DNA from: Pseudomonas sp. GM78 | GTDB lineage: Bacteria > Pseudomonadota > Gammaproteobacteria > Pseudomonadales > Pseudomonadaceae | Length of the DNA: 64,000 nucleotides | Direction: 5' to 3' | NCBI RefSeq assembly: GCF_000282475.1 | Contig: NZ_AKJF01000200.1 | Coordinates: forward strand, 1 to 64,000 | Shown: positions 4,533-50,507 of the stretch, in pieces | Numbering within the stretch: the stretch's first letter is position 1 | Layout: each line of letters opens with the position of its first letter | The notes under the pieces: model-generated | What the model was told of the DNA's origin: nothing | Databases searched by the model: none | What the model saw: only the letters and a program-made list of their open reading frames with translations | Translations under genes and position numbers: made by a program

Positions 4533-5537
4533 ATGTTGGCACCGAAGCGTCTACTGACCGCACTGGCCCTGACCCTGATCGGCAGCACCGCCGCCCAGGC
4601 CGCTGACGAGGTGGTGGTCTATTCCTCGCGCATCGATGAACTGATCAAGCCAGTCTTCGATGCCTACACCGCGAAAACCGGCACCCAGGTGAAGTTCATC
4701 ACCGACAAGGAAGCGCCGCTGATGCAGCGGATCAAGGCCGAGGGCGAGAACACGCCCGCCGACCTGCTGCTGACCGTCGATGCCGGCAACCTCTGGCAAG
4801 CCGAGCAGATGGGCATCCTCCAGCCCTTCACCTCGAAAACCATCGATGCCAACATTCCGCTGCAATACCGTGCGGCCTCCCATGCCTGGACCGGCCTGAG
4901 CCTGCGGGCACGGACCATCGCCTATTCCACCGACCGGGTGAAACCGGGCGAACTGACCACCTACGAAGCGCTGGCCGACAAGAACTGGGAAGGCCGCCTG
5001 TGCCTGCGCACGGCGAAGAAGGTCTACAACCAGTCCCTGACCGCCACCATGATCGAAGTGCACGGCGCCGAGAAAACCGAGAAAATCCTCAAGGGCTGGG
5101 TCAACAACCTGTCCACTGACGTGTTCTCCGACGACGTGGCAGTGCTCGAAGCCATCAATGCCGGCCAGTGCGACGTCGGCATCGTGAACACCTACTACTA
5201 CGGCCGCCTGCACAAGCAGAAGCCGGACCTGCCGGTGAAACTGTTCTGGCCGAACCAGGCGGATCGCGGCGTACACGTCAACCTGTCGGGCATCGGCCTG
5301 ATCAAGCACGCGCCGCATCCGGAAGCAGCCAAGGCCCTGGTGGAGTGGATGACCACGCCGGAGGCGCAGAAGATCTTCGCCGACGTGAACCAGGAATTCC
5401 CGGCTAACCCGACTGTGCAGCCATCGGCCGAAGTCGCTGCCTGGGGCAAGTTCATTGCCGATACCCTGCCAGTGGAAGTCGCCGGCAAGCGCCAGGCGGA
5501 AGCGATTCGCATGATGGATCGCGCTGGCTGGAACTGA
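4533..5537 (+). CDS. Iron(III) ABC transporter periplasmic binding protein (FbpA/HitA family)
   Basis: The 334-residue product starts with a signal peptide ending TAAQA (about residue 23). The mature part begins DEVVVYSSR, as in class II ferric-ion binding proteins, and contains a YYYG cluster of the kind that supplies tyrosine ligands to Fe(III). It should capture ferric iron in the periplasm and hand it to the permease encoded 138 bp downstream. No ATPase gene (fbpC) lies next to the pair. The same gene pair before gcvT is the layout I recall in P. aeruginosa (PA5217-PA5216). Confidence 0.88.
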
Positions 5538-8580: not shown

Positions 8581-8964
8581 ATGAGCAATATCCCTGCCGA
8601 CCTGCGTTTTGCCGAGAGCCACGAATGGGCTCGCCTGGAAGCCGATGGTACCGTCACCGTGGGCATCAGCGATCACGCGCAGGAAGCGCTGGGTGATGTG
8701 GTGTTCGTTGAGCTGACCGAAGTCGGCAACGTCTTTGCCGCTGGTGATCAGTCGGGTGTGGTGGAGTCGGTCAAGGCCGCTTCCGACATCTATTCCCCGG
8801 TTGCCGGTGAAGTGATCGCGGTCAACGAAGCTCTGAGCGGTGAGCCTGAGTTGCTCAACTCCGACCCGTACGGCGCGTGGATCTTCAAACTCAAGCCAAG
8901 CAACGCGGCTGACCTGGACAAGCTGCTCGATGCAGCGGGTTACAAGGCCGCCATCGGCGAATAA
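8581..8964 (+). CDS. gcvH: Glycine cleavage system H protein, lipoyl carrier
   Basis: Small 127-residue shuttle protein of the glycine cleavage complex. The lipoyl attachment site is K65 in the motif ESVKAASD, and the N-terminal [12 protein letters not shown] segment is typical. It carries the aminomethyl group between GcvP, GcvT and lipoamide dehydrogenase. It begins 50 bp after gcvT with GAGGACAC as ribosome site, and is followed by an intrinsic terminator and an inverted repeat before gcvP, so gcvP may be transcribed at a different level. Confidence 0.97.
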
Positions 8965-19667: not shown

Positions 19668-20657
19668 TTACTCCTGCACGAACTTCGCGCTGACATACGG
19701 CGAGTAATCCGGCAGCACCGTTTCAACCTTCCCCTGTTCCTTCAAAAACTTCGCCGTCTCGCCAATCGCCTGCGCAGTGCCGCCTGCCAGCAGTGCGCTG
19801 GTCTGTTGTGCCTTGGCATCCGGGAACGCGGACCCAGCCAGCAGTTCCGGTACGTCGGCGGCGTTGGCACCGGTCAATTTGGCGATTTTTTGCACCGGTA
19901 CCGAATCCGCAGTCCAGCTGTCCTTATGCGCCGCATAGTCGGCAAATGAGTCGAGGGTCACCTTGGCGAACCGGGCGATGACCTCCGGGTGCTTCTCGGC
20001 GTAATCCTTGCGCGCTACCCAGACTTCGAAGGTAGGTGCACCCCATTGGCCGACCTGCGCGGCATCGGTCAAGGTCTTGCCGGACTTGCGAATTTCTCCC
20101 AGGGCCGGCGACCAGACGAACGCGCCGTCGATGTCCCCACGTTTCCAGGCGGCGGCAATTTCCGCCGGTTGCAGGTTCACCACTTTGACTTTCGACGCGT
20201 CCAGCCCCCAGTGCTTCAGCGCGCCCAACAGGCTGTAGTGGGAAGTGGAAACGAACGGCGTGGCGATGGTCTTGCCGATCAGATCTTGCGGTTTATCGAT
20301 GCCACTGCCGTTGCGCACCACCAAGGCTTCGGCGGCATTGATCTGCGCGGAAACGAGGAACGCGACGATCGGCAGATTGCGCGAGGCTGCGGCAGCCAGT
20401 GGGCTGGAACCGAGGTTGCCGATCTGCACATCACCGGAGGCAATGGCGGTGACCACTTCCGGACCACTGTTGAAGCGCCGCCAGTCGATTTTCTCGCCAA
20501 TGGTTTTTTCGTAAAGGCCATCGGCCTGGGGGACTTTGCTCGGGTCGATACCGGTCTGATAGCCCACCGTGAGGTTCGCCGCATGGGCGGAAAAAGAAAC
20601 CATTAACGATACACAAACTGTAACAAATGGTCGGGATAGTGCGCGCTTGATCGTCAT
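19668..20657 (-). CDS. tauA: Taurine/sulfonate ABC transporter periplasmic binding protein, orphan
   Basis: The 329-residue product has a signal peptide ending FSAHA (about residue 26) and a TauA/SsuA-type fold beginning ANLTVGYQTGIDPSK, with conserved segments such as AAWKRGDIDGAFVWSP. It should bind taurine or a similar sulfonate. The mature 303 residues contain no cysteine and no methionine, while the signal peptide has both. No tauB, tauC or tauD follows: the gene runs straight into argA. It must borrow transport subunits, perhaps SsuBC encoded about 9 kb away. It is divergent from an OprD porin across a large palindrome. Confidence 0.85.
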   Translation of the reverse strand: MTIKRALSRPFVTVCVSLMVSFSAHAANLTVGYQTGIDPSKVPQADGLYEKTIGEKIDWRRFNSGPEVVTAIASGDVQIGNLGSSPLAAAASRNLPIVAFLVSAQINAAEALVVRNGSGIDKPQDLIGKTIATPFVSTSHYSLLGALKHWGLDASKVKVVNLQPAEIAAAWKRGDIDGAFVWSPALGEIRKSGKTLTDAAQVGQWGAPTFEVWVARKDYAEKHPEVIARFAKVTLDSFADYAAHKDSWTADSVPVQKIAKLTGANAADVPELLAGSAFPDAKAQQTSALLAGGTAQAIGETAKFLKEQGKVETVLPDYSPYVSAKFVQE

Positions 20658-20730
20658 GGCATCGGCCTCTTCGATAGGTTTTGTGGCGGAATTGCTACCA
20701 AACCTAATCGATCTAAAAAACGGCCAATAA

Positions 20731-20811
20731 ATACCATTTAGGAATTAGCTTATGAGTCAGCCGCTCTATCCCGAGGGCGGTGAGACGGTGAGCTAAATTC
20801 CTAAAGGGTAT
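20731..20811. promoter_or_regulatory. Large imperfect palindrome in the tauA-oprD divergent promoter region
   Basis: The 362 bp between tauA and the first porin contains no gene. Its most striking element is a left arm at 20731-20750 (ATACCATTTAGGAATTAGCT) whose reverse complement recurs at 20791-20811 with one mismatch and one insertion, around a 40-bp centre that is itself partly self-complementary. Each arm holds a TTCCTAAA box pointing toward the gene on its side, minus at 20736-20744 and plus at 20798-20806. This fits a shared operator for two divergent sulfur-starvation genes. Confidence 0.55.
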
Positions 20812-20917
20812 GAGGAAAGAATCCGATCATTCTTTTCAGGTTTATGACGAACTCATGACCCTGCAGGGACCAAAAAACCGGGGATTAGACTATGGTCGTA
20901 GACACACAAAGTTACGA

Positions 20918-20947
20918 TTGACTTGTGGGTCATGCTCTGGCGCTAAT
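20918..20947 (+). promoter_or_regulatory. Possible sigma-70 promoter of the first OprD gene
   Basis: TTGACT (-35) and GCTAAT (-10) are separated by 18 bp, and the -10 box ends about 72 bp before the start codon. The -35 is close to consensus; the -10 has four of six matches. It lies about 107 bp downstream of the palindrome, so an activator bound there would act at a distance. Confidence 0.35.
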
Positions 20948-21019
20948 CGCGCATCTTAGGATCCGGGACATCGATTCCGGGCCAGGAATACAAGAATTAG
21001 AGACGAGAGGAGCTAAACA

Positions 21020-22348
21020 ATGAACAAGTCCACCTTGGCCCTGGCCGTGGCCGTAGGGGTTATGGCGCAGCAGGCAGGCGCCGCGGGTTTCATCGAAGAC
21101 AGCAAGGCTTCCGTAAGTTCGCGCACCATGTATTACAACAACGATAACCGCGATGGCGGCGCGGATCAGCGAGAGACTGCTGAAGGCCTCAAGTTCGATT
21201 ACCTGTCGGGCTTCACCCAAGGGACTGTCGGATTCGGTTTCGACGCTCAGGCACTCGTCGGCATCCATCTGGATGGTGGCAAGGGCCATCACCCGGATAA
21301 CAATACATTCTTCCCAAGTGACACTGATGGCTCGGCAGTGCACGAGTGGAGCCGTGTGGCGGGTAACGTGAAGGCGCGTTTCTCGAAAACCGAGGCTCAC
21401 TACGGTGGTGCTTTGCAACCGAACATGCCAATACTGGTAGCGAACGACAGCCGTCTGCTGCCACAGACCTTTGAAGGGGGGACCATCACCTCGAAGGAAA
21501 TCGACAATGTGACCTTCAACGTAGGTCAGCTGGAGCACGCAGCGGGTCGCGCCTCGTCGAACACAGCTGGTATGGCAGTCAATGGTGGTACTCAGGACAG
21601 CAACAAGTTCCGCTACGCCGGTGCTGACTGGAAGGTCACCAAAGACCTGATGCTGCAGTACTACTACGCGAACCTGGAAGACTACTACAAGCAGAATTTC
21701 CTGGGCCTGGTGCATGTTTACCCAATCAGTGCCAACCAGTCCTTCAAGACCGATCTGCGCTATTTCGACAGCAGCTCTGACGGCAAGAACGGCGATCCGG
21801 GCTACGTCTTCAATAACAACGGTGGTTTCGCCAAGAACCCGGGCGAGGTCGATAACAAGACCTGGAGCGCCATGTTCACCTACACCCTGGGTGGTAACGC
21901 CTTCCTGCTCGGTCATCAGCGCGTCAACGATGATGGTGGCTTTGTCTACCTGAATCAGGGCAGCGTAGTGGACAGCAGAGGTCGCAACCAAGGTGAGGGT
22001 GGTACCAGCTTCTACCTATTCACCGATGCCATGATCAACGGCTTTGTCCGTGCCGGCGAGAACACCACCTTCGGTCAATACACTTATGATTTTGCAGCGG
22101 CGGGTGTGCCAGGTTTGAAAGCTTCGGTCGCTTACCTGCGTGGCGACAATATCAAGGCCAGAAACGGCACTGGTAGCGATATGTCAGAGTGGGAACGAGA
22201 CATGCGCGTGGATTACACCATTCAGCAGGGCACGCTCAAGGGCCTGGGCGTGACGCTGCGTCATGGCGTCTACCGTGGCAGCGAAATCGACATCGCCGAC
22301 CAGGACCAGACCCGTCTGATCTTCAACTACACCTACGCCTTCAAGTAA
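21020..22348 (+). CDS. OprD family outer-membrane porin, copy 1
   Basis: The 442-residue product has a signal peptide of about 21 residues (MNKSTLALAVAVGVMAQQAG) and OprD-family sequence throughout: AGFIEDSKASV at the mature N-terminus, ALQPNMPILVANDSRLLPQTFEGG in the middle, and a C-terminal aromatic strand ending YTYAFK as needed for BamA recognition. OprD porins form monomeric 18-stranded channels for small anionic or amino-acid-like solutes. The mature part has no cysteine and eight methionines. It is paralogous to the next gene, including signal peptide and leader. The solute may be a sulfonate or sulfate ester, judged from context only. Confidence 0.92.
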   Translation: MNKSTLALAVAVGVMAQQAGAAGFIEDSKASVSSRTMYYNNDNRDGGADQRETAEGLKFDYLSGFTQGTVGFGFDAQALVGIHLDGGKGHHPDNNTFFPSDTDGSAVHEWSRVAGNVKARFSKTEAHYGGALQPNMPILVANDSRLLPQTFEGGTITSKEIDNVTFNVGQLEHAAGRASSNTAGMAVNGGTQDSNKFRYAGADWKVTKDLMLQYYYANLEDYYKQNFLGLVHVYPISANQSFKTDLRYFDSSSDGKNGDPGYVFNNNGGFAKNPGEVDNKTWSAMFTYTLGGNAFLLGHQRVNDDGGFVYLNQGSVVDSRGRNQGEGGTSFYLFTDAMINGFVRAGENTTFGQYTYDFAAAGVPGLKASVAYLRGDNIKARNGTGSDMSEWERDMRVDYTIQQGTLKGLGVTLRHGVYRGSEIDIADQDQTRLIFNYTYAFK

Positions 22349-22359
22349 GCCGTAGCCAA

Positions 22360-22387
22360 AAGCCTCGTCAACGGACGAGGCTTTTTT
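22360..22387 (+). terminator. Intrinsic terminator after the first OprD gene
   Basis: AAGCCTCGTC and GACGAGGCTT form a stem around a short loop, then a T run, 12 bp after the porin stop. The two tandem porins are therefore probably separate transcription units. Confidence 0.9.
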
Positions 22388-22579
22388 CGCGTTCATTTTT
22401 ATATTCCATAAACAATGCACGTGATGATTTTTTATTCTTTTTAGCTTTTTTCTTAAGCGCTTAAAGTAAAGGCCTTCCGACACGCACCGTAAGCCTCGGA
22501 TCGAGTTCCAACCCCCCCGAACACCCGAGAATTCCAGGAATCGGTTTGTCGCCTTTACCTCGGGTCTGCGCTGTCGGGG

Positions 22580-22631
22580 CATATTCCTAAATGCGATTAA
22601 AATTGTTTTTACAATTCTTTTTAGGATTATG
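22580..22631. promoter_or_regulatory. Nested palindrome upstream of the second OprD gene
   Basis: The 385 bp between the two porins holds no gene beyond a terminator, an AT-rich stretch and this element. Outer arms CATATTCCTAAA (22580-22591) and TTTAGGATTATG (22620-22631) are complementary at 11 of 12 positions. Inside lies AATTGT-N4-ACAATT (22601-22616). The outer half-site repeats the TTCCTAAA box seen before tauA and the first porin. The element ends about 103 bp before the start codon and probably serves as an operator. Confidence 0.5.
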
Positions 22632-22733
22632 AAGGAGTATTCTGCGCGACCCAAAAAAACGACCGATCCAGACGGTCGCGGATCCAGGGCATTCGACCCG
22701 GGACCAAGAATTAGAAACGATAGGAGCGAAACA

Positions 22734-24095
22734 ATGAACAAGTCCACCTTGGCCCTGGCTGTGGCCGTAGGGGTTTTGGCGCAGCAGGCAAGCGCCGCCG
22801 GTTTCATCGAAGACAGCAAGGCAACGTTGGGGCTGCGCAACTTCTACATCAACACTGACTATCGTGACGGCGCTGCTCAGCCGAACAAGAACGAAGAATG
22901 GGGCCAAGGCTTCGACCTGCGTTTCATCTCCGGCTACACCCAAGGCACTGTCGGCTTCGGTATCGATGCGATCGGCCTGTTGGGCGTGAAGCTGGATTCG
23001 GGCGGCGGCACTAATGGCAACGTTAACGCCAATGGCACCCCTGGTAACGCTTATGGCGGCACTGTGTTCCCGAGCAAGTCCAACGGCGAAGCGGTTGATA
23101 ACTTCTCCAGCCTGGGCCTGACTGCCAAAGCCAAGATCTCCCAGACTGAACTGAAACTGGGTACCTTGCAGCCAAAACTGCCGGTGATCGTCACCAACGA
23201 TGGTCGTCTGCTGCCGCAAACTTTTCAGGGTGGTCAGATCACCTCTGGCGATATCAAAGACCTGACACTGGTCGGTGGTCAGATCGAGCACGCCAAAGGT
23301 CGTAACTCCAGCAACAACGAAGAGTTGTCGATCGCTGGTGCCAACGGTCGTACTGCGGCTGGCCGCGACAGCAACAAATTCTATTACGGTGGCGGTGACT
23401 ACAAAATCACCAAAGACCTGACTGCGCAGTACTACTACGGCAATTTGGAAGATTTCTACAAGCAGCACTTCCTGGGCCTGGTTCACAACTGGGCAATTGG
23501 CCCGGGCGTTCTGAAATCCGACCTGCGCTACTTCAATAGCCGGGATGACGGTGCCAACGGTCACGACGCGAACTTCTTCACTTCTGGCAACTACAATGCG
23601 CCGAGCGGTAAAGGCAAGGTCGACAACAACCTGTACAGCGGTCTGTTCCTGTACACCGTTGAAGGTCACACCTTCGGTGGCGGTTACCAGGTCAGCAACG
23701 GCAGCAGCGACTTCCCGTACCTGAACCAGGGCGACGGTGCATCGGCCTACATCATCACCGACTCGCAAATCCAGAAGTTCGCCCGTGCCGGCGAGAAAAC
23801 CTGGCAAGCACGTTACTCGTTCGATTTCGCCAAGGTCGGCGTACCTGGCCTGACAGCGGGTATGGTTTACCTGCATGGCGACGATATCGATACCGTCAAC
23901 ACTGCCGGTCGCGAGGCGGCTAACGGCGCTTCCGAGTGGGAACGCGACCTGACCGTGGGTTACGTCGTTCAGTCCGGTGCGTTGAAAAACCTCGGCGTGC
24001 AGTGGAAAAACGCCACCTGGCGCACCGATCTGCCGAACACTCGCTCCCAGGACGAGAACCGCCTGATCGTCAGCTACTCGATCCCGCTGTTGTAA
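22734..24095 (+). CDS. OprD family outer-membrane porin, copy 2 (sulfur-poor)
   Basis: The 453-residue product starts at the ATG at 22734 after TAGGAGCGAAACA; 35 in-frame upstream codons belong to the leader. The signal peptide (about 21 residues) is nearly identical to that of copy 1. OprD-type segments include SGYTQGTVGFGIDAIGLLGVK and LRYFNSRDDGANGHD. The C-terminus is hydrophobic rather than aromatic (SYSIPLL). The mature part of about 432 residues contains no cysteine and a single methionine (in AGMVYL), far below its paralogue. This suggests high-level expression under sulfur limitation. Substrate unknown. Confidence 0.92.
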   Translation: MNKSTLALAVAVGVLAQQASAAGFIEDSKATLGLRNFYINTDYRDGAAQPNKNEEWGQGFDLRFISGYTQGTVGFGIDAIGLLGVKLDSGGGTNGNVNANGTPGNAYGGTVFPSKSNGEAVDNFSSLGLTAKAKISQTELKLGTLQPKLPVIVTNDGRLLPQTFQGGQITSGDIKDLTLVGGQIEHAKGRNSSNNEELSIAGANGRTAAGRDSNKFYYGGGDYKITKDLTAQYYYGNLEDFYKQHFLGLVHNWAIGPGVLKSDLRYFNSRDDGANGHDANFFTSGNYNAPSGKGKVDNNLYSGLFLYTVEGHTFGGGYQVSNGSSDFPYLNQGDGASAYIITDSQIQKFARAGEKTWQARYSFDFAKVGVPGLTAGMVYLHGDDIDTVNTAGREAANGASEWERDLTVGYVVQSGALKNLGVQWKNATWRTDLPNTRSQDENRLIVSYSIPLL

Positions 24096-24121
24096 TAGCG
24101 CTCGGGTAACCCAAGCAAAAA

Positions 24122-24158
24122 AAGCCCCGCCCGGCATCACGCCGGGCGGGGCTTTTGT
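24122..24158 (+). terminator. Intrinsic terminator after the second OprD gene
   Basis: A 14-bp stem AAGCCCCGCCCGGC/GCCGGGCGGGGCTT around ATCAC is followed by TTTT and preceded by an A run, 26 bp after the porin stop. Confidence 0.93.
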
Positions 24159-24297
24159 GTTTTCGAGGCGGGCTCACCCCCGTAAACCCGCCTGGAAAAT
24201 CCCCTCTTTTGCAGCAACTCAAGGCCTTCTCGAACCTTGTGGGCGATGTTCGGCGCGATGAGTTCGCGCGTCCAGTGAAGAGATGTTTAATATTTCT

Positions 24298-24325
24298 TTT
24301 AGATCTAAATAAATCGATATTTATT
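24298..24325 (+). promoter_or_regulatory. AT-rich palindromes in the lsfA promoter region
   Basis: A 12-bp palindrome TTTAGATCTAAA (24298-24309) overlaps AATAAAT-CGAT-ATTTATT (24308-24325), a 7-bp inverted repeat with 4-bp spacer, 65-92 bp before lsfA. A very similar AATAAAT-ATG-ATTTAT element precedes ssuE. The size and AT content suit a LysR-type regulator such as CysB, but this is inferred from context. Confidence 0.45.
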
Positions 24326-24389
24326 CTTTTTAATAGATAAGAAATGCAGGCACAGTTGATCTCAACCAGCACTCACCAGGAGCAGCACC

Positions 24390-25028
24390 ATGAGCATCAG
24401 ACTGGGCGATATCGCCCCGGATTTCGAACAGGATTCCAGCGCCGGTACCATCCGGTTCCACCAGTGGCTGGGCGATAGCTGGGGTGTGCTGTTTTCCCAC
24501 CCGGCCGACTTCACGCCAGTGTGCACCACAGAATTGGGCTTCACCGCGAAACTGAAAGATGAATTCGCCAAGCGTGGGGTCAAGGCCATCGCGCTGTCCG
24601 TCGACCCGGTGGATTCGCACCACAAGTGGATCGAAGACATCAACGAAACCCAGAACACCGTGGTCAATTTCCCGATTCTCGACGACGCCGACCGCAAGGT
24701 CTCGGACCTGTACGACCTGATCCACCCCAACGCCAACGACACCCTGACGGTGCGCTCGCTGTTCGTGATCGACCCGAACAAAAAGGTCCGGTTGACCATC
24801 ACCTATCCGGCGAGCACCGGCCGCAACTTCAACGAAATCCTGCGGGTGATCGATTCGCTGCAACTCACCGACAACTACAAGGTGGCCACCCCGGCCAACT
24901 GGCAGGACGGTGATGAGGTGGTGATCGTGCCGTCGCTCAAGGATGAAGATGAAATCAAGCAGCGCTTTCCCAAGGGCTATCGCGCGGTGAAACCGTACCT
25001 GCGCCTGACGCCGCAGCCGAACAGGTAA
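24390..25028 (+). CDS. lsfA: 1-Cys peroxiredoxin induced by sulfur starvation
   Basis: The 212-residue product belongs to the Prx6/1-Cys peroxiredoxin group. The peroxidatic cysteine is C45 in HPADFTPVCTTELGF, no resolving cysteine exists, and the C-terminal extension ends YLRLTPQPN. It reduces peroxides in the cytosol. LsfA was described in P. putida as a sulfate-starvation-induced protein near sulfonate genes, matching this location before ssuE. Its only sulfur residues are the initiator methionine and the catalytic cysteine. The start is preceded by CCAGGAGCAGCACC. Transcription likely runs from the AT-rich promoter upstream. Confidence 0.94.
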   Translation: MSIRLGDIAPDFEQDSSAGTIRFHQWLGDSWGVLFSHPADFTPVCTTELGFTAKLKDEFAKRGVKAIALSVDPVDSHHKWIEDINETQNTVVNFPILDDADRKVSDLYDLIHPNANDTLTVRSLFVIDPNKKVRLTITYPASTGRNFNEILRVIDSLQLTDNYKVATPANWQDGDEVVIVPSLKDEDEIKQRFPKGYRAVKPYLRLTPQPNR

Positions 25029-25059
25029 CCCATTAATTTGTGGTGTGGCTGCTGCCCTC

Positions 25060-25123
25060 TTCGCGAGCAGGCTCGCTCCCACAGTTGACCGCGTACCACT
25101 GTGGGAGCGAGCCTGCTCGCGAA
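25060..25123. repeat. REPIN (GCGAGCAGGCTCGC type) with exact 25-bp arms
   Basis: Arms at 25060-25084 and 25099-25123 are exact reverse complements containing GCGAGCAGGCTCGCTCCCAC. It lies between lsfA and its terminator. The same subtype is found at 41556-41645 and 56892-56983. Confidence 0.9.
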
Positions 25124-25182
25124 AGCGCTGGATCGGGCACCGCAGAATCCAGATTGAACGAATCCATAAAGCAGGGGATTTC

Positions 25183-25207
25183 AGGCCGTTTCGACGGCCT
25201 TTTTTTT
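25183..25207 (+). terminator. Intrinsic terminator between lsfA and ssuE
   Basis: AGGCCGT-TTCG-ACGGCCT is a 7-bp stem with a stable UUCG tetraloop, followed by seven T. It is about 155 bp after the lsfA stop, beyond the REPIN, so the lsfA transcript would carry the repeat in its 3' end. Confidence 0.93.
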
Positions 25208-25232
25208 CGTCTGGAAGAAATCGAACGTATAT

Positions 25233-25270
25233 CTCTAAAACGAATAACCAAATGAATAAATATGATTTAT
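25233..25270 (+). promoter_or_regulatory. AT-rich operator/promoter region of the ssu operon
   Basis: The 328 bp between lsfA and ssuE holds a REPIN, a terminator and this AT-rich segment, but no gene. CTCTAAAACGAAT (25233-25245) resembles the CTAAA boxes of the neighbouring units. AATAAAT-ATG-ATTTAT (25255-25270) resembles the inverted repeat before lsfA. The transcript leader to ssuE would be about 90 bp or less. CysB-dependent activation is the likeliest reading, given what is known of ssu control in pseudomonads. Confidence 0.45.
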
Positions 25271-25356
25271 GGATATATAAATCACCTGTTAAGGTCACTC
25301 CATCAAAGCGAGATCGCAAACCGCGAATCGCCAACACCGTTCAAGGAATCCTCTGA

Positions 25357-25950
25357 ATGCTGGTCGTCTCACTCGGTGGCAGTCCCAGCCAGCGCTCCCG
25401 TTCCGGGGTGTTGCTGGAGCGCTCCCAGCGTTGGTTGCAAGGGCAGGGCGTGGAAGTGGTGAGCTACCAGGTACGGGACTTCCCGGCTGAAGACTTGCTG
25501 CATGCACGCTTCGACAGCCCGAAGGTGATCAACCTGCTGCAACAGATCGAAAACGCCGATGGCCTGCTGATCGCCACGCCGGTCTACAAGGCTTCGTTCT
25601 CCGGTGCGTTGAAAACCGTGCTGGATCTGCTGCCCGAGCGTGCCCTGGCGCACAAAGTGGTGTTGCCAATGGCAACCGGGGGCAGCATCGCTCATATGCT
25701 AGCGGTGGATTACGCGCTCAAGCCGGTGTTGTCGGCATTGAAGGCCCAGGAGCTGCTCCAGGGGATCTTCGCCGTCGACAGCCAGATCGCTTACGGCGAA
25801 GGCAGCGCCCAGGCGCAGTTGGCACCGGAGCTGGAGCAAAGATTGAACGAGTCGCTGGAGTTGTTTTTCAGCGCCATGGCGCGACGGCCCAAGCCGCTCG
25901 ATCCGCAGCTGTTGAATGATCGTTTGTTGAGTGCTCGCTGGAGCATTTAA
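25357..25950 (+). CDS. ssuE: NADPH-dependent FMN reductase for alkanesulfonate desulfonation
   Basis: The 197-residue flavodoxin-like reductase begins [16 protein letters not shown], the phosphate-binding loop of the family, and contains the flavin-contact segment [15 protein letters not shown] (about residues 73-87). It supplies FMNH2 to SsuD. It has no cysteine and four methionines. It is the first gene of ssuEADCBF, read from an AT-rich promoter, and is followed after 90 bp by ssuA. The start has AAGGAATCC upstream. Confidence 0.95.
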
Positions 25951-26040
25951 GCCTTACCCCAAATTGATGTACTGGCCTTACTCGCCCGCTAACGGGCAAG
26001 CAGGTGCAGCCAAAAACCCAACTGCAAAAAGGAGAGCGCC

Positions 26041-27021
26041 ATGCGCCCTGTCATTTTGCGTCGCGGTCTGGTCGCTCTGTTTGCTGCGGCTGTCACCTTC
26101 GGCGCCATTACTCAAGCTCAGGCCGAGACGCTTCGAATCGGCTATCAGAAATACGGCACCCTGGTGCTGCTCAAAGCCAAGGGCACCCTGGAAAAACGCC
26201 TCGCCGGCCAAGGCGTCGACGTGCAATGGACTGAATTCCCCGGTGGCCCGCAACTGCTCGAAGGCCTGAACGTCGGCTCCATCGACTTCGGCGTCACCGG
26301 CGAAACCCCGCCAGTGTTCGCCCAGGCAGCCGGCGCTGATCTGCTCTACGTCGCTTATGAGCCGCCAGCGCCGCACAGCGAAGCGATCCTGGTACCGAAG
26401 GACTCGCCGATCAAATCGGTGAAGGATCTCAAGGGCAAGAAAGTTGTCCTGAACAAAGGCTCCAACGTGCACTACTTGCTGGTCCGCGCCCTGGAAGACG
26501 CCGGCCTCAAGTACACCGATATCCAGACCGTATTCCTGCCGCCGGCCGATGCCCGCGCCGCGTTCGAGCGTGGCAGCGTCGATGCCTGGGTCATCTGGGA
26601 CCCGTACCAGGCCGCCGCCGAACAGCAGCTGCAAGCGCACACCCTGCGCGATGGCCAGGGCATCGTCGACAACCACCAGTTCTACCTCGCCACCAAGCCC
26701 TATGCGCAGAAAAACCCTGAGGTGATCAAGACCCTCGTGGAAGAAGTGCGCGCGGTCGGTGAATGGTCCAAGGCCAATCCGGAAGACGTGACCAGGCAGG
26801 TTTCGCCACTGCTTGGCCTGCCGGCGGACATCACCCTGACGTCGGTGAAACGCCAGGGCTACGGCGCGCTGTTCCTGACCCCGGACGTGGTCGCCGCGCA
26901 ACAGAAAATCGCCGACAGCTTCTATCAGCTCAAGCTGATTCCCAAGCCGCTGAGCATCAAGGATGTGATCTGGACGCCACCGGCGGCTGTTGCCCAAAGC
27001 TCAGTAACCAAAGCCCAGTAA
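26041..27021 (+). CDS. ssuA: Aliphatic sulfonate ABC transporter periplasmic binding protein
   Basis: The 326-residue product has a signal peptide ending ITQAQA (about residue 28), then TLRIGYQKYGTLVLLKAKG, characteristic of SsuA. It binds alkanesulfonates for SsuBC. Apart from the initiator methionine it contains neither methionine nor cysteine, so the mature protein of about 298 residues is free of sulfur amino acids. Such depletion is expected of an abundant periplasmic protein made during sulfur starvation. It follows ssuE and precedes ssuD by 25 bp. AAAGGAGAG gives a strong ribosome site. Confidence 0.96.
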   Translation: MRPVILRRGLVALFAAAVTFGAITQAQAETLRIGYQKYGTLVLLKAKGTLEKRLAGQGVDVQWTEFPGGPQLLEGLNVGSIDFGVTGETPPVFAQAAGADLLYVAYEPPAPHSEAILVPKDSPIKSVKDLKGKKVVLNKGSNVHYLLVRALEDAGLKYTDIQTVFLPPADARAAFERGSVDAWVIWDPYQAAAEQQLQAHTLRDGQGIVDNHQFYLATKPYAQKNPEVIKTLVEEVRAVGEWSKANPEDVTRQVSPLLGLPADITLTSVKRQGYGALFLTPDVVAAQQKIADSFYQLKLIPKPLSIKDVIWTPPAAVAQSSVTKAQ

Positions 27022-27046
27022 ATCGATTCCCTAAGGAGACCACTCC

Positions 27047-28195
27047 ATGAGCCTCAATATCTTCTGGTTCCTGCCAACCCACGGCGACGGCCATTACCTT
27101 GGCACCGCCGAAGGCGCTCGCGCCGTCGACCACGGTTACCTGCAACAAGTCGCGCAAGCTGCGGATCGCCTGGGTTTCGGCGGCGTGCTGATCCCTACCG
27201 GTCGTTCCTGCGAAGACTCGTGGCTGGTGGCCGCGTCGCTGATTCCGGTGACCCAGCGTTTGAAATTCCTCGTCGCGCTGCGCCCCGGGATCATTTCCCC
27301 GACGGTGGCGGCGCGTCAGGCCGCGACCCTGGATCGCTTGTCCGGCGGGCGTGCTTTGTTCAACCTGGTGACAGGCGGTGATCCGGAAGAGCTGGCCGGC
27401 GACGGTCTGTTCCTGACCCACGAAGAGCGCTATCAGGCCTCGGTGGAATTCACCCGCATCTGGCGTCGCGTGCTGGAAGGCGAAACCGTCGATTACGATG
27501 GCCAGCACATCAGCGTGAAGGGCGCCAAGCTACTCTATCCGCCGATCCAGCAACCGCGTCCGCCGCTGTACTTCGGCGGCTCGTCGGAAGCGGCCCAGGA
27601 CCTCGCGGCAGAGCAGGTCGAAATGGTCCTGACCTGGGGCGAGCCACCGGCCGCCGTTGCCGAGAAAATCGCCCAGGTACGCGCCAAGGCCGCCAAGCTC
27701 GGGCGTACCGTGCGCTTCGGCATTCGCCTGCATGTGATCGTGCGCGAAACCAACGCCGAGGCCTGGCAAGCGGCTGATCGACTGATCTCGCACCTGGACG
27801 ACGACACCATCACCCGTGCCCAGGCTTCGCTGGCGCGCTTCGATTCCGTGGGCCAGCAACGCATGGCTGCGTTGCACGGTGGCAATCGCGACAACCTGGA
27901 AGTCAGCCCCAACCTGTGGGCCGGTGTCGGTCTGGTGCGCGGTGGTGCCGGCACGGCACTGGTGGGTGATGGTCCGACCGTGGCTGCCCGCGTGAAGGAG
28001 TACGCGGACCTGGGTATCGACACCTTTATCTTCTCCGGTTATCCACACCTGGAAGAGTCGTATCGCGTTGCCGAGCTGCTGTTCCCGCACCTGGATATCG
28101 AGCGTCCCGAGCTGCCGAAAAGCGCCGGTTACGTCAGCCCGTTTGGCGAGATGGTCGCTAACGACATTCTCCCTAAAGCCGCGTCCCAGAGCTGA
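27047..28195 (+). CDS. ssuD: FMNH2-dependent alkanesulfonate monooxygenase
   Basis: The 382-residue cytosolic enzyme of the bacterial luciferase-like family cleaves C1-C14 alkanesulfonates to aldehyde and sulfite using FMNH2 from SsuE. Typical segments are [17 protein letters not shown] at the N-terminus, [13 protein letters not shown], and [11 protein letters not shown] near residue 111. Length and motifs match SsuD rather than other luciferase-like enzymes. It holds one cysteine and four methionines including the initiator. It lies 25 bp after ssuA and 8 bp before ssuC. Confidence 0.97.
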
Positions 28196-28203
28196 GGCGC
28201 GCC

Positions 28204-28986
28204 ATGAAGAAGATCATTCACAGCCTTGCGCCCTGGGCATTGCCGGTCTTGCTGTTGGCGGTGTGGCAGTTGTCGGTGTCGGCGGGCTGGTTGTCGACGC
28301 GGATTCTGCCGGCGCCCATTGCCGTGATCGAAGCCGGGGTGAGCCTGGTCAGCAGTGGTGAAATCTGGACGCACCTGGCCATCAGCGGCTGGCGCGCGGC
28401 GCTGGGCTTCGCCATTGGCGGCGGCATCGGCCTGACCCTGGGCTTCATCACCGGCCTGTCGAAGTGGGGCGAGCGCCTGCTCGACAGCTCGGTGCAGATG
28501 ATCCGCAACGTGCCGCACCTGGCGCTGATCCCCTTGGTGATCCTGTGGTTCGGCATCGATGAGTCGGCGAAGATTTTCCTGGTGGCCCTGGGCACCTTGT
28601 TCCCGATCTACCTCAACACGTATCACGGCATTCGCAACGTCGACCCGGCGTTGGTGGAAATGTCGCGCAGCTACGGCTTGTCCGGTTTCAGCCTGTTCCG
28701 CCAGGTGATTTTGCCGGGGGCGCTGCCTTCGATCCTGGTCGGTGTGCGCTTTGCCCTCGGTTTCATGTGGTTGACGCTGATCGTCGCCGAAACCATCTCC
28801 GCCAGCTCCGGCATCGGCTACCTGGCGATGAATGCCCGGGAGTTCCTGCAGACCGACGTGGTGGTCCTGGCGATTCTGCTGTACGCGGTGCTCGGCAAAC
28901 TGGCCGACCTCGCGGCCCGTGGACTTGAGCGTGTGTGGCTGCGCTGGCATCCGGCTTATCAAGTCGTTAAAGGAGGTGCCGCATGA
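28204..28986 (+). CDS. ssuC: Sulfonate ABC transporter permease
   Basis: The 260-residue inner-membrane protein has about six hydrophobic segments. The EAA-type loop reads [20 protein letters not shown] (about residues 152-171), where SsuB docks. It forms the channel for sulfonates delivered by SsuA and perhaps by the orphan TauA-like protein. Its stop overlaps the ssuB start as ATGA, so the two subunits are translationally coupled. It contains no cysteine. Confidence 0.95.
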
Positions 28987-29789
28987 CCGCTCAACAACCT
29001 CCACGCCTGCTGCGCGGGATTCCGCTGGCGGTGCGCAAACTGCAAAAAACCTTCGGCTCGCGGCAGGTGCTGCGCGAGATCGACCTGCACATTCCAGCCG
29101 GTCAGTTCGTCGCGGTGGTCGGTCGCAGTGGCTGCGGCAAAAGTACCTTGCTGCGCCTGCTGGCCGGGCTCGACCAGCCTACGGGCGGTGACTTGTTGGC
29201 CGGCTCCGCGCCGCTGAGCGAGGCGCGGGAAGATACGCGGCTGATGTTCCAGGAAGCGCGTCTGCTGCCGTGGAAAAAGATCATCGACAACGTCGGCCTC
29301 GGGCTCAAGGGCAACTGGCGCCCGCAAGCGCTGCAAGCGTTGGAAGCGGTCGGCCTGGCGGATCGCGCCAATGAGTGGCCGGCGGCCTTGTCCGGAGGGC
29401 AGAAGCAACGTGTGGCGTTGGCTCGAGCATTGATCCACAAGCCGCGCCTGCTGTTGCTCGACGAGCCGTTGGGTGCGCTGGACGCCCTGACCCGCATTGA
29501 AATGCAGCAGCTGATCGAACGGCTCTGGCAACAGCACGGCTTCACCGTGTTGCTGGTCACCCACGACGTCAGCGAAGCGGTGGCGATCGCCGATCGGGTG
29601 ATCCTGATCGAAGACGGCGAAGTCGGCCTCGACTTGCACGTGGAACTGCCGCGCCCTCGGGTACGCGGCTCCCATCGGCTGGCGGCGCTGGAAACCGAAG
29701 TCCTCAACCGCGTGCTGTCGCTACCTGGCCAGCCGCCGGAACCGGAACCTGTATCACCCTTGCCTACGCAGTTGCGTTGGGCTCAATAA
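28983..29789 (+). CDS. ssuB: Sulfonate ABC transporter ATP-binding protein
   Basis: The 268-residue ATPase has Walker [10 protein letters not shown] (about residues 47-55), Q-loop FQEARLLPW, signature [14 protein letters not shown], and Walker [13 protein letters not shown]. It energises SsuC. GGAGGTGCC just before the start is a strong ribosome site lying inside the end of ssuC. The C-terminal tail after about residue 235 is proline-rich and not conserved. Confidence 0.96.
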
Positions 29790-29822
29790 CTCAAGCCTCA
29801 ATCAACGACAGGAATCAACATC

Positions 29823-30038
29823 ATGACTATCAAGGCCATCAACGTTCGCAACCAGTTCAAAGGCTCGATCAAGGAAATCGTCCTCGGTGACGTGCTGTCG
29901 GAAATCGATGTGCAGACGGCTTCCGGGATCGTCACCTCGGTGATCACCACGCGTTCGGTGAAAGAGCTGGAACTGGCGGTGGGCAGCGAAGTGATCGCAT
30001 TCGTGAAATCCACCGAGGTGTCGATCGCCAAGTTGTAA
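29823..30038 (+). CDS. ssuF: TOBE-domain molybdopterin-binding-like protein SsuF
   Basis: The 71-residue product is a single TOBE/Mop domain (MTIKAINVRNQFKGSIKEIV to AFVKSTEVSIAKL). In P. putida S-313 the last gene of ssuEADCBF encodes such a protein and is needed for growth on some sulfonates and sulfate esters, although its biochemical role is not settled. Its only sulfur residue is the initiator methionine. It starts 33 bp after ssuB with a GACAGGAATC ribosome site and is followed by a terminator, so it closes the operon. Confidence 0.92.
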   Translation: MTIKAINVRNQFKGSIKEIVLGDVLSEIDVQTASGIVTSVITTRSVKELELAVGSEVIAFVKSTEVSIAKL

Positions 30039-36093: not shown

Positions 36094-37206
36094 ATGAAGG
36101 CATTAGGAAAAAAGCTTGCTGGCAAGACCCTCCTCGCCATGTCCCTGATGGGCATTATGGCGGGTGCGGTTCAGGCGGACGACAAGGTGTTGCACGTCTA
36201 TAACTGGTCTGATTACATCGCTCCGGACACTATCAAGAAGTTTGAAGACGAGTCGGGCATCAAAGTTGTCTACGACGTCTTCGACAGTAACGAAACCCTC
36301 GAAGCCAAGTTGCTGGCAGGCAAGTCCGGTTACGACATCGTCGTGCCGTCGAACAACTTCCTGGCCAAGCAGATCAAGGCCGGCGTTTACCAGAAGCTGG
36401 ACAAGTCCAAACTGCCTAACTGGAAGAACCTGAACACCGACCTGCTCAAGGCGGTATCGGTGAGCGACCCGGGTAACGAGCACGCCTTCCCGTACATGTG
36501 GGGTTCGATCGGTATCGGCTTCAACGCCGAGAAGGTCAAGGCTGCACTGGGTGCCGACGCACCGACCAATTCCTGGGACCTGCTGTTCAAACCTGAAAAC
36601 GCCGCCAAGTTGAAGTCGTGCGGTATCAGTTTCCTCGATTCGCCTACCGAGATGATTCCGGTGGCGTTGCACTACCTGGGCTATCCAACCGACAGCCAGG
36701 ACAAGAAACAACTGGCCGAAGCCGAAGCGCTGTTCCTGAAAATCCGTCCTTCGGTTGGCTACTTCCACTCGTCCAAGTACATCTCCGACCTGGCCAACGG
36801 CAACATCTGCGTGGCCGTGGGTTACTCGGGCGACATCTACCAGGCCAAGTCCCGCGCGGCTGAAGCCGGTGACAAGGTGAAGGTCAGCTACAACATTCCC
36901 AAAGAAGGTGCCGGCAGCTTCTATGACATGGTCGCCATCCCTAAAGATGCCGAAAACGTCGAAGGCGCCTACAAGTTCATGACCTTCCTGCAAAAGCCGG
37001 AAATCATGGCTGAAATTACCAACGCCGTGCGTTTCCCGAACGGTAACGCGGCCGCCACGCCATTGGTTGATAAAGAAATCACCGCCGACCCAGGCATCTA
37101 TCCGCCAGCGGACGTGCTGGCCAAGCTGTACGCGATTGCCGACTTGCCGGCCGCGACCCAGCGGATCATGACTCGCAGCTGGACCAAGATCAAATCCGGT
37201 AAATAA
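36094..37206 (+). CDS. spuD: Polyamine ABC transporter periplasmic binding protein, SpuD type
   Basis: The 370-residue PotF-family protein has a signal peptide ending AGAVQA (about residue 28), then [18 protein letters not shown]; the aromatic NWSDYI segment lines the polyamine pocket. In P. aeruginosa, SpuD prefers putrescine. It is the first of two paralogous binding proteins here. A hairpin and an A-rich tract precede it, and 188 bp with another hairpin follow, so its mRNA level may be set separately. It shares long identical stretches with the next gene. Confidence 0.92.
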
Positions 37207-49922: not shown

Positions 49923-50507
49923 TCAGGGCTTGGGCGTTACATCCGAATCCGGCCCCAGCCACTTCTGCTCCAGCGCTTCCAACCGCCCATCCGCCTTGAT
50001 CCGTTGCAACGCGCTTTCCAGGCTGGCGTGAAACGCCGGGTTGCCCTTCTGGAACGGAATCGACAAGTTCACCGCCTGGGCGGCTTTGGGCTTTTGCTCT
50101 GTCAACGACTGCACCAGCAATATCGAGCGCGGTTCTTCTTTCTGCGCGATCAATTGCGCTTGGGTTTGCACATAAGGTTCGCTGAAGTCGAAACGATCCG
50201 CGAGCGCCGGGGTCTGTGCAATGTGGTTGATGGCAATGTCGTATTTGCCACTTTCCACGCCGGTCAGCAGATCACTGGCGTCGGTAACGACAAAGTCGGC
50301 GCGCACCTCCAGTTCGTTGGCCAGCAGTTGACCCAACTCGACTTCGAAGCCGGTGAGCCTGCCATCCTCCTTGAAACTGAAGGGGGGGTTATTAGCCTCA
50401 AGGGCAATGCGCAATTCACCGCGATCGTTCACGTCGTCAATCAGTTCGGCGTGAGCCAGCGGGCTCAAAAGGGGTAGCAGGCAGATCAGGCCAGGCAGAA
50501 AACGCAT
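49923..50507 (-). CDS. Shortened family-3 (amino-acid type) solute-binding protein
   Basis: The 194-residue product has a signal peptide ending LSPLAHA, then the standard first lobe of SBP family 3: RGELRIALEANNPPFSF, LTGFEVELGQLLANEL, GKYDIAINHIAQTP, DRFDFSEPYV. After QLIAQKEEP the usual second-lobe core (about 70 residues including the KGKKVGV strand) is absent. The chain jumps to IPFQKGNPAF and the C-terminal LEALEQKWLG. It therefore cannot form a normal two-lobe clamp. No permease or ATPase is adjacent. The ATG at 50507 with AAGGAG is preferred to GTG 50513. It might be a degenerate binder or a sensor. Confidence 0.75.
   Translation of the reverse strand: MRFLPGLICLLPLLSPLAHAELIDDVNDRGELRIALEANNPPFSFKEDGRLTGFEVELGQLLANELEVRADFVVTDASDLLTGVESGKYDIAINHIAQTPALADRFDFSEPYVQTQAQLIAQKEEPRSILLVQSLTEQKPKAAQAVNLSIPFQKGNPAFHASLESALQRIKADGRLEALEQKWLGPDSDVTPKP

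Follow-up and report, generated by a model that had tools for sequence, protein, structure and literature searches.

Within a 64,000-nucleotide window of the Pseudomonas sp. GM78 genome (235 contigs, 7.29 Mb), the proteins of a gene island comprising an orphan TauA-like binding protein, an OprD porin, LsfA, and the Ssu proteins are depleted in cysteine and methionine. This depletion is conserved, exceeds genome, family, and neighbour controls, and very probably reflects a sulfonate and taurine scavenging island under sulfur-sparing selection against the two residues. Starting from argA, the order is the orphan tauA-like gene on the reverse strand, two OprD porin genes (porin1 and porin2), lsfA, and ssuEADCBF (Table 1). 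The initial annotation had described TauA-like and SsuA as free of Cys and Met in their mature parts, with at most one or two such residues left in SsuF, LsfA, and porin2, and all these counts were reproduced by a recount in which signal cleavage sites were placed by eye at A-x-A. More precisely, the TauA-like full chain has one Cys and two Met, all inside the 26-residue signal peptide (the start at 20657 was used for mature counts instead of the automatic gene call at 20603), SsuA and SsuF keep Met1 only, LsfA keeps Met1 and Cys45, and porin2 keeps Met1 and Met377, i.e., one Met in 432 mature residues, compared to eight mature Met in porin1. The nearby controls are likewise richer, as first noted: the FbpA-like protein (4533-5537) has six Met and two Cys beyond Met1, and the binding protein at 36094-37206 has six Met beyond the signal region and two Cys. 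SsuD, SsuE, SsuC, and SsuB also lie under the mean (1.0, 1.5, 1.5, and 1.1% Cys+Met, respectively), only SsuD and SsuB being singly below P = 0.05. The initial observation is thus sound, and it proved wider than first noted.

Two gene samples, from which partial genes and genes of less than 150 amino acids were dropped, enabled comparison with the genome. The first one (29 stretches, 374 complete genes, counted after residue 30) has a mean Cys+Met content of 3.17% and includes four genes with zero, of which three match a sulfate-binding protein (TIGR00971), a cystine-binding protein (PRK11260), and SfnB (TIGR04022), the fourth being lipoprotein-like with no Pfam match. This sample was not blind, as most contigs came from family hits and the three sulfur-related zeros lie on two contigs reached via NMT1 matches. 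The second sample (20 stretches, 276 genes), whose positions were picked unseen on contigs that searches for other families had brought up, has a mean of 3.07% after residue 30 and no gene free of Cys and Met. The genome-wide ranking suggested by the initial annotation, run here on gene samples, places TauA, SsuA, and porin2 below every one of the 276 genes of this second sample by Cys+Met fraction; two of these genes are as low as LsfA. At the 3.07% rate, the binomial P values are 7.9e-5 for TauA, 9.2e-5 for SsuA, 2.1e-5 for porin2, and 0.011 for LsfA, while neither SsuF (P 0.11, too short) nor porin1 is significant singly. In terms of binomial tail, TauA and SsuA are each reached by 2 of the 276 genes and porin2 by one. 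Abundance alone was considered as a cause and rejected in view of what we take to be GroEL (3.7%), an EF-Tu fragment (4.9%), and an OprF-like protein (1.9%), presumably abundant proteins without a role in sulfur metabolism.

Protein families offer a second reference. Among the 19 NMT1-type binding proteins of the genome, six have zero Cys+Met, including both window proteins. The four others are found on contig C68 with a tauABCD-like operon, on C29 in a cluster resembling the ats cluster presented for Pseudomonas sp. UW4 in the relevant passages of PMC3596284, and on C214 and C213 in clusters with FMN monooxygenases; two of them pass the NCBIfam cut-off for sulfonate/taurine binding and two fall just short. 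Among 24 OprD matches, a single porin, on C83, ties porin2 with one Met, and it is 86.7% identical to porin2; it sits at the contig start, where its upstream context is cut off, next to an SBP_bac_11 fragment. With 1.9% Cys+Met, porin1 is in the usual range of these matches. The initial annotation had named equally poor binding proteins and OprD porins elsewhere in the genome as a finding that would speak against its claim. Such proteins literally occur (four more zero NMT1 proteins and one more one-Met porin), but the four binding proteins sit with sulfur-acquisition genes, and the claim is therefore mostly widened rather than overturned. In the same line, members of the TauD family have 0, 0, 0.7, and 1.1% versus 2.9-4.6% in the other five, Cys+Met spreads from 0 to 7.6% among luciferase-type monooxygenases, and several of the family members with the lowest values, L168 (C60) and L181 (C90) left aside, belong to sulfur clusters. 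On C214, two TonB receptors retain a single Cys/Met each after residue 30 (1/680 and 1/801). The same contig carries a dense sulfur-poor cluster (L067, G000:C214, 4777-18637) with three NMT1 binding proteins, an FMN monooxygenase (0/420), the two TonB receptors, and a 2-hydroxyacid dehydrogenase-like protein (0/289).

These comparisons also bear on the idea that binding proteins and beta-barrels are generally poor in Met and Cys, the island proteins being merely the tail of an envelope-wide distribution. Indeed, 22 of the 24 OprD matches lack Cys, the median of TonB receptors is 1.0%, and the lowest protein of the second sample is an outer-membrane efflux protein with one Cys/Met in 406 residues. 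As the absence of Cys is ordinary in the envelope, the signal in the porin and the binding proteins is mainly one of Met. Nevertheless, enzymes taken as cytosolic by family, and with no visible export signal, are equally empty after residue 30, namely SfnB (0/383), a TauD-type dioxygenase that is AtsK-like by position (0/276), and the above FMN monooxygenase, which weakens the envelope explanation. Besides, other binding proteins are normal: counts for 24 SBP_bac_3 proteins (11 of the 35 matches were dropped) are non-zero in 22 cases, with up to 4.3%, the two zeros being a short protein encoded in the window and one of cystine type on C68. An envelope rule is thus an improbable cause.

The comparison of orthologues across Pseudomonas relied on 80 named loci fetched with porin2, all from this genus, after removal of matches that had at most 90% query coverage, fell short of the identity threshold, or were interrupted by a stop codon. 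The low Cys/Met pattern is kept across these loci: zero Cys+Met is found in 53 of 56 TauA, 63 of 76 SsuA, and, after Met1, all 77 SsuF orthologues, and exactly one Cys/Met after Met1 in 79/79 LsfA orthologues, with 3.0% and 3.6% in the flanking ArgA and glutamine-synthetase-like controls. One might argue that an ancestor lacked Met by chance and that close relatives copied this state with no current selection, the more so as most compared orthologues are 74-100% identical and rows are not independent. However, E. coli TauA is also devoid of Cys and Met although 131 of 298 aligned sites differ from the TauA-like protein. In addition, parsimony replacements to Cys/Met amount to 69/4578 (1.5%) in nine sulfur genes and 87/2302 (3.8%) in the five flanking genes taken as controls (P 8e-9, an optimistic value given the relatedness of orthologues), i.e., 0.21 and 0.57 of the mutational opportunity, respectively. 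Since these counts contradict it, and since a lineage of the porin2 clade with no sulfur neighbour found carries 10-12 Met, mere inheritance appears highly unlikely. The fold itself does not forbid Met: among TauA-model matches in other genomes of the class, 1 of 29 has zero Cys+Met and the nine best-scoring ones reach 3.2-6.2%.

Signal peptides, as parts that are removed from the protein, give a mixed picture: within TauA, Cys and Met make up 74/1392 of their residues versus 3/17019 of mature chains, and the signal peptides of porin2 hold 23/1580, but those of SsuA hold none. A further explanation would be that easily oxidised residues are removed in cells low in glutathione and cysteine. It could account for LsfA keeping only its catalytic Cys, for a slightly lower His content in the sulfur-poor set (1.83 vs 2.17%), and for the rise of antioxidant proteins, LsfA included, described for sulfur-starved P. 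aeruginosa in passages of PMC12581299. Yet Trp and Tyr are not depleted in 16 sulfur-poor proteins (1.70 and 2.88%, the second sample having 1.44 and 2.63%), which speaks against a general oxidation effect, and other periplasmic binding proteins, residing in the same compartment, keep Met. Oxidation avoidance is consequently considered unlikely.

The initial annotation further proposed that the two porins are functionally separate. In favour of this view, porin1 and porin2 fall into separate OprD clades of a midpoint-rooted tree, mean Cys+Met counts are 4.57 in porin1 orthologues (n=49, range 1 to 8) and 2.05 in those of porin2 (n=80), porin1 being higher in 46/49 pairs, and replacements to Cys/Met reach 3.5% in porin1, like the controls, and 1.7% in porin2, unlike them. 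However, the porin1 range is wide and this gene shares the upstream box of TauA discussed below, so that the proposed separation of function is supported in part only; any depletion in porin1, which is placed in the other OprD clade, is weak at most. As for porin2-like genes, 20 further regions were taken from genus members. Fifteen of these genes, ranging from 0 to 1.18% Cys+Met, are adjacent to lsfA-ssu or to an SsuA-like gene, and five with no such neighbour found have 0.94, 0.23, 0.23, 2.87, and 2.39% (for L304 this absence was read from a tblastn table only, and the gene lists of L302-L305 are partial at best). Two porins, L314 and L315, around which some 6 kb revealed no sulfur neighbour, have 10-12 Met and are nested inside the sulfur-poor porin2 clade, which is consistent with Met having been regained after leaving the sulfur context, in what would be a single event. 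No mention of porin1 or porin2 expression was found in the main texts of PMC12581299, PMC2996968, PMC8079746, and PMC10256816, apart from one unrelated "porin", and no report of a sulfur-starvation OprD porin was recognised among the matches listed in literature searches.

Upstream of these genes, a common promoter box emerges as a computed pattern at the TauA/porin1 gap and lsfA, more weakly at porin2 and ssuE, and in other sulfur-poor clusters. The motif was trained on 14 upstream regions outside the window, picked for their sulfur neighbours from 41 low-Cys/Met genes. With 18 and 24 positions, scores decrease from the TauA/porin1 gap to lsfA, porin2, and ssuE; when the model has 30 positions, ssuE comes before porin2. 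In the same order, the 24-mer score is reached by 0, 0, 5, and 1 of 500 shuffles and by 0, 2, 13, and 15 of 500 column-permuted models, and the 18-mer score by 0, 0, 5, and 19 shuffles and by 0, 14, 22, and 73 column-permuted models. With the 24-mer, 56/56 TauA orthologues exceed the 99th percentile of the background (54/56 with the 18-mer), and orthologues scoring above 95% of 60 shuffles are 56/56 for TauA, 48/49 for porin1 (the same gap as TauA), 72/79 for LsfA, 35/49 for porin2 (loci with porin1 between), and 70/76 for SsuE. The regions upstream of ArgA, the GlnA-like gene, SsuD, and SsuB exceed the 95th percentile of the background no more than twice in 74-78 cases, those of SsuD and SsuB being coding DNA and hence weak controls. 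Five divergent partner genes were removed from the background of the percentile test and kept in that of the motif ranking. In E. coli, the 18-mer scores of tauA and ssuE (6.1 and 6.4) are under that of a nearby control region (8.0), and the 24-mer score of ssuE is 10.4 versus 6.3 in the control; no link to the CysB/Cbl sites of E. coli is proposed. A sigma-70 scan found nothing (0 versus 3.5 in shuffles), and neither motif words composed by hand nor a sigma-54 pattern gave a clear signal.

Several observations weigh against the sulfur-sparing explanation. In terms of composition, a TauA protein from another genome of the class (L247), which scores 344 bits and hence above the equivalog cut-off, has two Cys and eight Met in 308 residues, the signal peptides of SsuA are, unlike those of TauA, devoid of both residues (0/2057), SsuC gains Cys/Met at control level (10/263, 3.8%), and the flanking TetR control gains few (5/536, 0.9%). 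The low median of TonB receptors and the efflux protein mentioned above point the same way, as do three receptors (L189, L190, and L199) at 0.3-0.5%, counted irrespective of gene context. Within the porin tree, a sister lineage of L314/L315 (L308 and L310) has one Met each and no sulfur neighbours; these two porins adjoin transport and dehydrogenase genes without visible sulfur link. Regarding the box, its training set was hand-picked from low-Cys/Met genes with sulfur neighbours, whose upstream DNA is rich in AT, and between 2 and 73 of 500 models with permuted columns score as high as the matches at lsfA, porin2, and ssuE. Finally, induction of porin2 and of the orphan TauA under sulfur limitation stands as a prediction. 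Taken together, the sulfur-sparing part of the initial proposal is well supported by the genome, family, and flanking controls, the 80 loci, the replacement counts, and the maintenance of Trp and Tyr, the separation of the porins being the part that holds only partially.

According to the sulfur-sparing model, the scavenging proteins of the island would be made when sulfur is short, and selection would strip them of Met and Cys in such a way that the uptake machinery does not consume the scarce element, sulfur saving being the putative selective cause. The box may bind a regulator of sulfur status, CysB or a relative. Judging from its neighbourhood, composition, and box, porin2 could pass organosulfur anions across the outer membrane, and the orphan TauA might feed a TauBC or SsuBC transporter encoded elsewhere. 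A broader proposal, to which we give even chances, is that Cys+Met loss is a readable and reversible label of the Pseudomonas sulfur-starvation regulon, from TonB receptors and an OprD clade to binding proteins and cytosolic oxygenases, with porin2 as a sulfonate-uptake porin and with genes leaving the regulon regaining Met. If this were true, composition and box would predict regulon membership from sequence alone. More generally, the known principle of elemental economy seems to reach TonB receptors and a clade of outer-membrane porins, the sequence by itself provides a means to nominate sulfur-scavenging genes with no known substrate, and porin2 would be a concrete candidate for sulfonate passage across the Pseudomonas outer membrane.

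Table 1. Features of the island and box matches in the window (box matches are to the motif learned from other sulfur-poor clusters).
Feature	Position	Strand	Details
Orphan TauA-like taurine-binding protein	19668..20657	-	26-aa signal peptide; mature 303 aa (19668-20579), 0 Cys, 0 Met
Box TAAATACCATTTAGGAATTAGCTT, TauA/porin1 intergenic	20728..20751	+	Motif match
porin1, OprD family	21020..22348	+	8 mature Met (contrast case); PF03573 over full barrel, 417.6 bits
Box upstream of porin2	22431..22454	+	Weaker motif match
Second box upstream of porin2	22613-22630	-	Motif match, 18-mer
porin2, OprD family	22734..24095	+	Mature 432 aa, only Met377, no Cys; PF03573 over full barrel, 481 bits
Box upstream of lsfA	24289..24312	+	Motif match
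LsfA, 1-Cys peroxiredoxin	24390..25028	+	PF00578 (AhpC/TSA), PF10417 (1-Cys C-terminal); single Cys at 45
Box upstream of ssuE	25225..25248	-	Weak motif match
SsuE, FMN reductase	25357..25950	+	TIGR03567; 3 Met after Met1
SsuA, sulfonate-binding protein	26041..27021	+	PRK11553, TIGR01728; mature 298 aa, 0 Cys, 0 Met
SsuD, alkanesulfonate monooxygenase	27047..28195	+	TIGR03565; 1 Cys, 3 Met after Met1
SsuC permease	28204..28986	+	PRK11365; 4 Met after Met1
SsuB ATPase	28983..29789	+	PRK11247; 1 Cys, 2 Met after Met1
SsuF, 71-aa TOBE/molybdopterin-binding-like	29823..30038	+	PF03459, TIGR00638; only Met1

The TauA-like protein passes the equivalog model TIGR01729 (437.6 bits for a cut-off of 304.25) and scores 397 with a second one, NF008553, under the cut-off of 490; its structure match is PDB 6ssy (E 1.5e-105), and it shares 56.0% identity with E. 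coli TauA over 298 aligned residues. It is not encoded with tauBCD, its gene being convergent to argA and divergent from porin1. In three other Pseudomonas loci (L298, L299, and L300), a tauABCD-like operon lies beside porin2-lsfA-ssu in place of the orphan TauA. The name LsfA is presumed from gene context. Elsewhere in the window, the short SBP_bac_3 protein encoded at 49926-50507 (reverse strand) lacks Cys and Met over the 163 residues counted from the start of its domain, with no evident sulfur-related gene beside it, and a 127-amino-acid protein (8581-8964) has neither residue after Met1, a weak case in view of its length.

The principle of sulfur-poor proteins in sulfur assimilation is known, and the novelty here consists in the clade of porins, in the orphan TauA with its composition and box, and in how widely the depletion extends. 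Mazel and Marliere reportedly described in 1989 sulfur-depleted versions of abundant cyanobacterial proteins; as in the present case, proteins of a sulfur-limited cell lose sulfur amino acids, but those are abundant light-harvesting proteins, whereas sulfur-uptake machinery and an outer-membrane porin are concerned here. Baudouin-Cornu is said to have reported in 2001 that proteins of sulfur assimilation in E. coli and yeast are depleted in sulfur, i.e., the same principle and partly the same proteins, the E. coli Cys+Met counts being 0/298 for TauA, 1/282 for TauD, 0/190 for SsuE, 3/295 for SsuA, and 4/380 for SsuD. What sets the present case apart is that binding proteins of Pseudomonas, TonB receptors, and a clade of porins are covered as well, and that neighbouring genes and signal peptides served as controls. 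Both works are cited in passages of PMC2940859 and PMC5513900, which describe sulfur-assimilation proteins as poor in sulfur amino acids. As far as the relevant passages go, ssu, Tau, and LsfA proteins are increased in sulfur-starved P. aeruginosa (PMC12581299), ssu and tau genes are decreased on root exudates (PMC8079746, PMC10256816), and TauD and a sulfonate-type periplasmic protein are increased under chromate in P. putida F1 (PMC2996968). The closest arrangement is that of Pseudomonas sp. UW4, where lsfA lies upstream of ssuEADCBF and tauA (PputUW4_05218) lies apart from the other tau genes, although the passages on these genes mention neither porins nor composition (PMC3596284).

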